From Pseudomonadota bacterium (lineage in GTDB: Bacteria > Pseudomonadota > Gammaproteobacteria > Burkholderiales > Burkholderiaceae_C): a stretch of 44,944 nucleotides of DNA. Location: contig JABBOE010000013.1 in NCBI GenBank assembly GCA_019351955.1, forward strand, positions 1-44,944, given 5' to 3'. Both the position numbers and the translations under genes were made by a program. A model generated the notes under the pieces. That model was not told the origin of the DNA. It did not search any database and saw nothing but the letters and a program-made list of their open reading frames with translations. This document shows positions 36,983 to 40,407 of this stretch, in pieces; position 1 is the first letter of the stretch, and each line of letters opens with the position of its first letter.

Positions 36983-39262
36983 TCAATTGACCACTGTAAG
37001 CTTGGCAATGCTGAGCGCGAGCCACTTCGGGCCGTGCCGATTAAAGCGCACCTGGGCGCGGGCGTCGGCCCCCCGACCCTCAAGTGTCAGGATGACACCC
37101 TCACCGAACTTGGTGTGGAATACCGACTGACCCACGCGCAAACCGGGCGCCGATTGGTGTTGAAAGTCCTCCGCCGGTGTGAACGTCGGGGCCGGCGCAT
37201 CCTTCCATGGCGAGCGAATGCTCAAGCCAATGGATGGGCTGAATCCACCACCCACGGCCCGGCTTGAAAGCCACTTGAGCGTGCCTTCGGGCAGTTCCTC
37301 CAAGAAGCGGCTGCGCAGGTTGTACCGCGTTTGGCCATGCAAGATTCGGCTTTGCGCATGGCTCAGGTAAAGGCGCTTACGGGCGCGGGTGATGGCCACA
37401 TACATCAGTCTTCGCTCCTCCTCAATGCCATCGGCCTCGTTCATCGCGTTTTCATGAGGAAACAAACCCTCCTCGAGTCCTGTGATGAAAACAACGTCAA
37501 ACTCAAGGCCCTTGGCGGCATGCACAGTCATCATCTGCACTGCGTCTTGCCCGGCCTGCGCCTGATTGTCACCCGCCTCCAACGCGGCATGTGTGAGAAA
37601 AGCGGTTAGCGGTGAGAGCGTCTCACCCGTCGCGGGATCAACGGCCTGAAGGTTTAGCAGCGCCTGCTCCGACAGTGGCTGCAGCGCAAGTGCCACCGCT
37701 TCCAGCCCAAAGCCCTCCTGCGTGACGAAAGCAGCAGCAGCGTTGACCAGTTCCTCGAGGTTCTCTACCCTGTCCTGCCCATCGCGCTCGCTGCGGTAAT
37801 GCGCAAGCAGCCCGGAGAGTTCCAGCGCATGGCGCACAAGATTCGGAAGGGACAATGCTGCGCAATCCGCACGAGCTCTAGCCAACATCTCGACGAAAGC
37901 CTGGAGGCTCGCGGCTCCGCGCCCACCAAGCGCAGAAATGGCATCGGCAAGCGGAACCTGGCGTACTCGCGCGGCATCCTGCAACTGCTCCAGGGTACGC
38001 GCACCAATTCCGCGCGGAGGAAAGTTCACCACACGCAAAAATGCGTTGTCGTCATGTGAATTGTCGAGCAGGCGCAGGTAGGCAAGCGCATGTTTGACTT
38101 CAGCGCGTTCGAAAAAGCGCAGTCCACCGTAGACACGATAAGGAATCGCTGCATTGAACAGCGCCCCTTCGATCACACGCGACTGCGCGTTGGAGCGATA
38201 AAGAATGGCGATCTGGTCACGCGAAAATCCGTCGCGCAGCAGCAGACGGATCTCCTCGACAAGCCAAGCTGCTTCCTGCTGGTCCGTGGGCTGCTCGATC
38301 ACTCGGACCAACTCGCCTGCGCCGGCATCGGTCCTCAGATTTTTACCTAAGCGGCGGGTGTTGTGTGCAATGAGGTAGTTCGCGGCATCAAGAATGTTGG
38401 CTTGGGAGCGGTAATTGTGCTCGAGCTTGATGATGCGGTGCACATGGAACTCGCGCTGGTAGTCATCCATGTTGCCCACATTCGCTCCGCGAAAGGCGTA
38501 GATACTTTGGTCGTCATCACCCACAGCCACCACGCTGCTCGCTTGCTTCTCCCCCGGCCCGGCCAGCAGTTTGAGCCACTGGTACTGCAGACGGTTCGTG
38601 TCCTGGAACTCATCGACAAGGATATGGCGGAAACGGGTCCGATAATGCTCGCGGATGTCTGCATGATCGCGAAGCACCTCGTATGTGCGCAGCAGCAGCT
38701 CGGCGAAGTCCACCACCCCCTCGCGCTGACACTGAGCCTCGTAGGCCACATAGATCTCTACCAACAGGCGGCTCTGGGCATCGCGCACATCGCAGTCCTT
38801 CGCGCGCATGCCATCTTCCTTGCAGTCGTTGATGAACCAAGCCACCTGCTTGGGCGGCGCGCGCTGTTCATCCACGTTGAGGCTCTTAAGCAGTCGTTTG
38901 ACAGCCGAGAGTTGATCCTGCGCGTCAAGAATCTGGAACGTCTGCGGCAGGCCCGCCGCCTTCCAATGTGCCCGCAAAAACCGATTGCATAGGCCGTGAA
39001 ATGTCCCCACCCACATGCCACGCACGGGAATGGGCAACATGGCCGATAGCCGCGCAAGCATCTCCTTTGCCGCCTTGTTGGTAAACGTCACCGCCAGGAT
39101 CCCGGCCGGCGACACTTGCCCGGTTGAGATGAGCCAAGCAATACGGGTAGTCAAGACACGTGTTTTCCCGCTTCCGGCGCCCGCCAAAATTAGCGCGTTC
39201 TCCGGTGGCAGCGTGACAGCAGCAAGCTGCTCTGGATTGAGGTGAGCCAATAGATCGGACAT
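36983..39262 (-). CDS. UvrD/PcrA-type ATP-dependent DNA helicase
   Basis: [71 protein letters not shown]. Confidence 0.95.
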
Positions 39263-39332
39263 GGCGCCATTCTAGGTGTCGCGGTCCGCGTCTGGCCGCG
39301 GCACGGGCCTGCGCAGCAAGGTTGGCGGAGCC

Positions 39333-39338
39333 TACAAT
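39333..39338 (+). promoter_or_regulatory. Putative -10 element for the GMP reductase leader (TACAAT)
   Basis: TACAATGT about 7 nt before a structured leader; no clear -35 seen. Confidence 0.35.
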
Positions 39339-39345
39339 GTCTCAC

Positions 39346-39386
39346 CCGGGTTGCGCCCGAAATTTTCTGCGCGCGCCCGGTTTTTT
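39346..39386 (+). promoter_or_regulatory. Terminator-like hairpin plus U6 in the GMP reductase 5' leader (candidate attenuator)
   Basis: CCGGG-TT-GCGC / GCGC-G-CCCGG stem followed by TTTTTT, 43 nt upstream of the GTG start. Confidence 0.5.
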
Positions 39387-39429
39387 GCGTGCGCAAGGCC
39401 CCGCAATGGGGCTTGCATCGGAGTGCATC

Positions 39430-40407
39430 GTGGACATCTTCGATTACGAGAATATTTTGCTGCTTCCCAGGCGTTGTCGGGTGGCGAGCCGTGCTGAGTG
39501 CGACCCGTCCCTGACCTTTGGTGGGCGCACCTTCCGGCTGCCCATCGTGCCCGCAAACATGAAGACCGTGATTGATGCACACATCGCACGCTGGCTGGCC
39601 GCTCATGGTTACTTTTACATCATGCACCGCTTCGACGTTGACGCCGTGGCCTTTGCGCGTCAGATGCACGAGGCGAATCTGTTCACATCCATCTCGCTGG
39701 GGGTCAAGCCTGCGGACCGGGACGTCGTGGACAGGCTTGCTGCCGAGGGCCTCGGCGCTGACTTCATCACCATTGATATCGCTCACGGCCATGCTGACAG
39801 CGTGCAGCACATGATCGCCCATATCAAGCATCGCCTTCCGCGAACCTTCGTCATTGCCGGCAACATTGGCACGCCAGAGTCAGTGATCGACCTGGAAGGC
39901 TGGGGCGCGGACGCAACCAAGGTTGGCATCGGCCCGGGCAAGGTGTGCATCACTCGGATGAAAACCGGATTCGGCACCGGCGGCTGGCAACTCTCGGCTT
40001 TGAAGTGGTGTGCACGCGTAGCGACCAAACCAATTATTGCGGACGGCGGCATTCGGGAGCACGGCGATATTGCCAAGAGCGTGCGCTTCGGAGCCGCAAT
40101 GGTCATGATCGGATCCATGCTGGCCGGCCACGAGGAATCTCCGGGGCAGACCGTGGAAGTCGATGGCCAACTCTACAAGGAGTACTTTGGAAGCGCCTCG
40201 GAGTTCAACAAGGGCCAACGCCGCAACGTCGAGGGCAAGCGCATCCTGGAACCAATCAAGGGCCGGCTGGTCGATACGCTCAAAGAGATGGAAGAAGACC
40301 TGCAAAGCTCCATCTCCTATGCGGGCGGTACGCAGTTGGCAGATATTCGTAAGGTGAATTACGTCATCCTCGGTCAGAACAATGCAGGCGAGCATCTTTT
40401 GACGTGA
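39430..40407 (+). CDS. guaC: GMP reductase (IMPDH/GMPR family)
   Basis: GTG start after [82 protein letters not shown]. Confidence 0.88.

Follow-up and report, generated by a model that had tools for sequence, protein, structure and literature searches.

A conserved start-site hairpin followed by a T tract before guaC in one Burkholderiales family: a candidate promoter-fused terminator

Why should a terminator-like hairpin lie between a promoter and the gene that this promoter is predicted to serve? The question is raised by a GMP reductase gene (guaC) in the 44,944-nucleotide stretch of Thiomonas-like (Burkholderiales) DNA analysed here, hereafter the window, whose leader a first-pass annotation had taken for a candidate transcription attenuator or purine-sensing element. 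GMP reductase converts GMP to IMP, connecting the guanine with the adenine nucleotides and draining guanine nucleotides.

The gene (39430-40407, + strand, 325 aa) exceeds the cut-offs of the NCBIfam models TIGR01306 (515 bits) and NF003966 (566 bits), which identifies it as guaC, and all elements listed in the first-pass annotation were found in place on the + strand. A predicted -10 element, TACAAT (39333-39338), is followed by the hairpin P1 (39346-39380), whose arms are CCGGG (39346-39350) and GCGC (39353-39356) on the 5' side and GCGC (39371-39374) and CCCGG (39376-39380) on the 3' side. P1 runs directly into a T6 tract (39381-39386), 43 nt ahead of the GTG at 39430, with which it forms a putative intrinsic terminator or attenuator. 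A second hairpin, P2 (39393-39416, arms GCAAGGCCCC/GGGGCTTGC), lies between the T tract and the Shine-Dalgarno (SD) sequence GGAG (39420-39423, assigned from sequence) and ends 3 nt 5' of it, and a small hairpin, CGGGTTGCGCCCG, is present at 39347-39359. The upstream neighbour is a divergent uvrD-like helicase gene; P1 thus does not terminate a gene lying upstream of it, as the annotation had recognised, and since uvrD points away, no upstream transcript needs a terminator in leaders of the window type. Neighbour orientation was used only for clear uvrD cases, ORF length being unreliable in GC-rich DNA. At 39260-39274 on the - strand, exactly 6 nt separate a TAGAAT from the ATG of the window uvrD (TAGAATGGCGCCATG), a spacing from which the uvrD mRNA is probably leaderless; TANAAT-N6-ATG is retained in the relatives L002-L004, L006-L013, L038 and L083-L085.

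Folded alone, P1 of the window reached -19.0 kcal/mol (z = -2.66), and single-sequence support for a terminator was modest; because a simple terminator scan of the window region gave no excess over shuffles, the significance of P1 comes from comparison with orthologs. In a first comparison, 80 guaC loci displayed TA[G/C/A]AAT, exactly 5 nt, ACCGGGCC, a variable loop and CCGGT, usually with a T tract. The block TANAAT-N5-ACCGGGC..loop..CCGGT, again usually with a T tract, was present in 65 of 73 evaluable orthologs from a motif-blind sample of genomes of the GTDB family, nearly all of different genera (four of the 65 have a variant -10 recognised by eye). A strict pattern matched 22 of 301 family genomes, once each and always directly before guaC, and the reversed pattern used as a control gave 0 matches in the same genomes; a looser pattern found 8 matches in 399 genomes of the order, all within the same family, and the block was not found in the other sampled families. 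With a single copy per genome, the block is no dispersed repeat, nor is it a general terminator. The genome-wide search relied on exact patterns; a covariance model applied to only 150 candidates per genome missed the window itself. With a score of 18.8 bits (E 0.06 in 140 kb), a model built without the window clade recovers the window element at 39333-39387.

Several loci fall outside this pattern. In L063/L187 a TACAAT ahead of guaC is followed at once by an unrelated hairpin with T7, the same architecture in another sequence, which speaks for the terminator reading; L065, L069, L071 and L078 lack P1 and share a guaC leader of another kind, GCGGTACCAT..GCCGG..CCGG..CACGGAG. In the genus of the window, a close guaC occurs in only 5 of 28 genomes, versus 74 of 91 family-wide, which points to repeated loss or gain.

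The -10 hexamer marks the onset of conservation in 127 distinct promoter regions; positions further 5' carry less than 0.5 bit, and no conserved -35 was detected in these regions. The hexamer and the start were required by the pattern used for selection; neither the discriminator nor the upstream region was. The predicted start is A in 99% of the regions, although the selection motif itself demands A or T there, and is preceded by C-1 in 97%. For the window this places the start at A39344 (C-1/A+1, + strand), as deduced from the constant distance of exactly 5 nt between the -10 element and the P1 block in relatives. There the hairpin begins with the predicted start A itself, and in the window clade one extra base separates this A from the P1 stem. 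The order predicted -10, P1, T6, SD, GTG is conserved, which upholds the proposal of a promoter-proximal, terminator-like hairpin within the guaC leader and sets the hairpin between promoter and gene, as in an attenuator.

The annotation had further proposed mutually exclusive folds, and this part did not hold up. The small hairpin is predicted at -7.1 kcal/mol against -19 for P1 and occurs only in the closest clade of the window. Folding the full leader of the window gave a structure in which P1 is open and the SD masked, with a predicted advantage of 3.5 kcal/mol over the P1 fold, and L002 has this structure as its best predicted fold; L003 and nine other Thiomonas-type leaders favour P1, with predicted probabilities of 0.76-0.997. 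No conserved antiterminator fold was found, the alternatives not being common to L003 and the other Thiomonas types. From the order of synthesis, P1 would be the first to form during transcription. As the small hairpin is limited to one clade, L003 and the nine others prefer P1, and P1 should form first, we do not accept a conserved two-state switch. The SD-proximal hairpin fared better: in all measurable Thiomonas-type leaders the P2 interval gave negative shuffle z values (-0.9 to -3.2), and in L004 the P2 arm is maintained through G-U pairs. The SD of the window does not lie within a conserved covarying helix.

Across the family, leader length separates two groups. Short leaders (Thiomonas, Tepidimonas and the window) mostly measure 42-86 nt, and long leaders have a median of 121 nt. 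A run of five or more Ts follows P1 in 23/23 short and 79/117 long leaders (Fisher p = 5e-4, uncorrected for phylogeny). In the other 38 of 117 the tract is interrupted or lost with P1 retained, and for this reason P1 probably has a role besides termination in long leaders that lack an intact tract. A second CCGG occurs in 108 of 117 long leaders (33.6 expected by shuffling); its candidacy as an antiterminator was rejected on timing, the copy being transcribed after the T tract, and it could act only on read-through RNA. Many long leaders place hairpins around the ribosome-binding site and SD, with covariation of CUGUU/AACAG versus UCGUU/AACGA. Using labels that are shorthand and no taxonomic result, the inner hairpin of the Acidovorax-like leaders covaries, and a Rubrivivax/Leptothrix-like hairpin has one covarying pair (UA 10, CG 9, GC 1); 24 of 30 pattern loci of the latter domain stand before guaC, and the other six score as chance. 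This domain, UCAAGCGCUCGCAGCC..NNGC-ACUGC-N(2-4)-AAC-GCNN, covaries strongly and stands before guaC in L153, L157, L160-L168, L171, L173, L176 and L178; it had no Rfam match, and a pseudoknot might form between its invariant GCAG and CUGC. The L030 and L077 leaders carry an extra element with CCGGCATAACAAGCCCTTCGGGCAGTTGTT between P1 and the 3' domain, both of which are retained.

Does the conserved block function as RNA at all? That it is a chance hairpin or the terminator of a neighbouring gene is scarcely credible: the scan without excess would suit chance, but recurrence in most orthologs at a constant -10 distance argues against it, the genome pattern searches refute it, and the upstream gene is divergent in the Thiomonas relatives as well as in the window. 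A repressor overlapping the start site and binding the inverted repeat as a DNA operator would account for the near-invariance of ACCGGGCC..GGCCCGGT at +1, yet we regard it as very improbable. Its half-sites lack fixed spacing, P1 varying in total length from 25 to 31 in 1-nt steps and reaching 38 in the window, and there is one site per genome. The 5' arm hardly changes in the 80 distinct P1 hairpins compared, and the +2/+3 pairs never vary; departures in the 3' arm at +4 to +6 comprise 29 G-U and 1 A-U pairs versus 2 mispairs, being C to U changes that retain pairing in RNA and would break a DNA palindrome. These G-U-keeping substitutions, together with the single-base variation in arm spacing, show a constraint on pairing at the RNA level and mark the element as an RNA hairpin. 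The first-pass annotation had let its case hang on conservation and covariation of the stems: conservation stood, whereas covariation in P1 alone is weak (2 pairs with a double change), the few double compensations being explained by the nearly invariant 5' arm.

The main rival of the terminator reading makes P1 chiefly a 5'-end stabiliser that, beginning at +1, hides the end from RppH/RNase E; the U tract would be bound by ribosomal protein S1 or used as a standby site, and termination would be incidental. Retention of P1 without a T tract in L036, L132, L140/L151, L164 and L173 would suit it, as would the minimal leaders L014, L018 and L158, in which no SD is recognised and the U tract sits about 9-17 nt ahead of the start codon. 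We nevertheless think it unlikely, as every short leader, those with a good SD included, keeps its T run, and stability alone needs no Ts directly after a GC-rich hairpin. Less probable still is a metabolite-sensing RNA (purine riboswitch) of which the window shows only the expression platform. The 3' domains of long leaders, structured, covarying, guaC-specific and with long invariant stretches, speak for this; however, the window lacks a domain of this kind as well as an Rfam match, and because its hairpin begins at about +3 it leaves no possible aptamer upstream of the terminator. The P1 loop was itself rejected as an aptamer, since it differs between lineages.

On balance, we favour a promoter-fused intrinsic terminator (start-site attenuator) that limits guaC expression as the probable reading, with real room for doubt. 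P1 and T6 have the make-up of an intrinsic terminator, a GC-rich hairpin (-19 kcal/mol) followed directly by a T-rich tract; against an attenuator stand the lack of a conserved antiterminator and, in the window, of a sensor upstream of the terminator. RNA polymerase would initiate at about A39344 from TACAAT, and the 5' end of the nascent RNA would be folded into P1 by about +37. The T6 tract would be met at once, and part of the transcripts would stop at about +40 to +43, yielding an RNA of roughly 42 nt; read-through would give guaC mRNA with the leader P1-U6-P2-SD, and the level of GMP reductase would be kept low. Long-leader relatives may have added a second layer, the hairpin around the ribosome-binding site, the T tract often being lost as if control had partly shifted from termination to translation. 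A broader view, which we put forward tentatively and hold to be rather doubtful, is that of a guaC-specific leader-RNA family in one Burkholderiales family, with an ancestral start-site terminator and lineage-added domains controlling the ribosome-binding site, one of them (the Rubrivivax/Leptothrix-like UCAAGCGCUCGCAGCC domain, hairpin loop ACUGC..AAC) a purine riboswitch of undescribed type.

The leader type had seemed unfamiliar to the annotation, and the searches agreed with this: Rfam 15, at gathering score and relaxed thresholds, gave no relevant match to the leaders of the window and 26 relatives, and no description of a guaC leader RNA or of RNA control of GMP reductase was found in the literature searched. 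Stabilising stem-loops of the ompA type place a hairpin at the extreme 5' end, as P1 does; P1, however, is followed directly by a T tract, and its gene is expected to be expressed at a low level. The xanthine riboswitch (NMT1 motif) is likewise a bacterial leader RNA of purine genes, but the text of the paper does not name GMP reductase among the genes (PMC7373994), and the guaC leader matches no Rfam family. The HMP-PP (thiS) riboswitch, with its aptamer embedded in the terminator (PMC6478431), is similarly compact, with little besides a terminator hairpin, whereas no aptamer is assignable to P1, whose loop varies between lineages. Closest in architecture are transcription attenuators with leader terminators of the pyrBI, pyrG and trp type, many of them surveyed in PMC2965389, which also place a terminator-like hairpin and U tract between the promoter and the start codon of a metabolic gene. 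The guaC leader is attenuator-like in this sense, yet its hairpin begins at the transcription start, and it has no leader peptide, no conserved antiterminator and, in the window, no upstream sensor. A terminator starting at +1 is about the smallest possible attenuator and offers a classical sensor no space; the covarying RNA domains of the long-leader relatives are suited to ligand tests.
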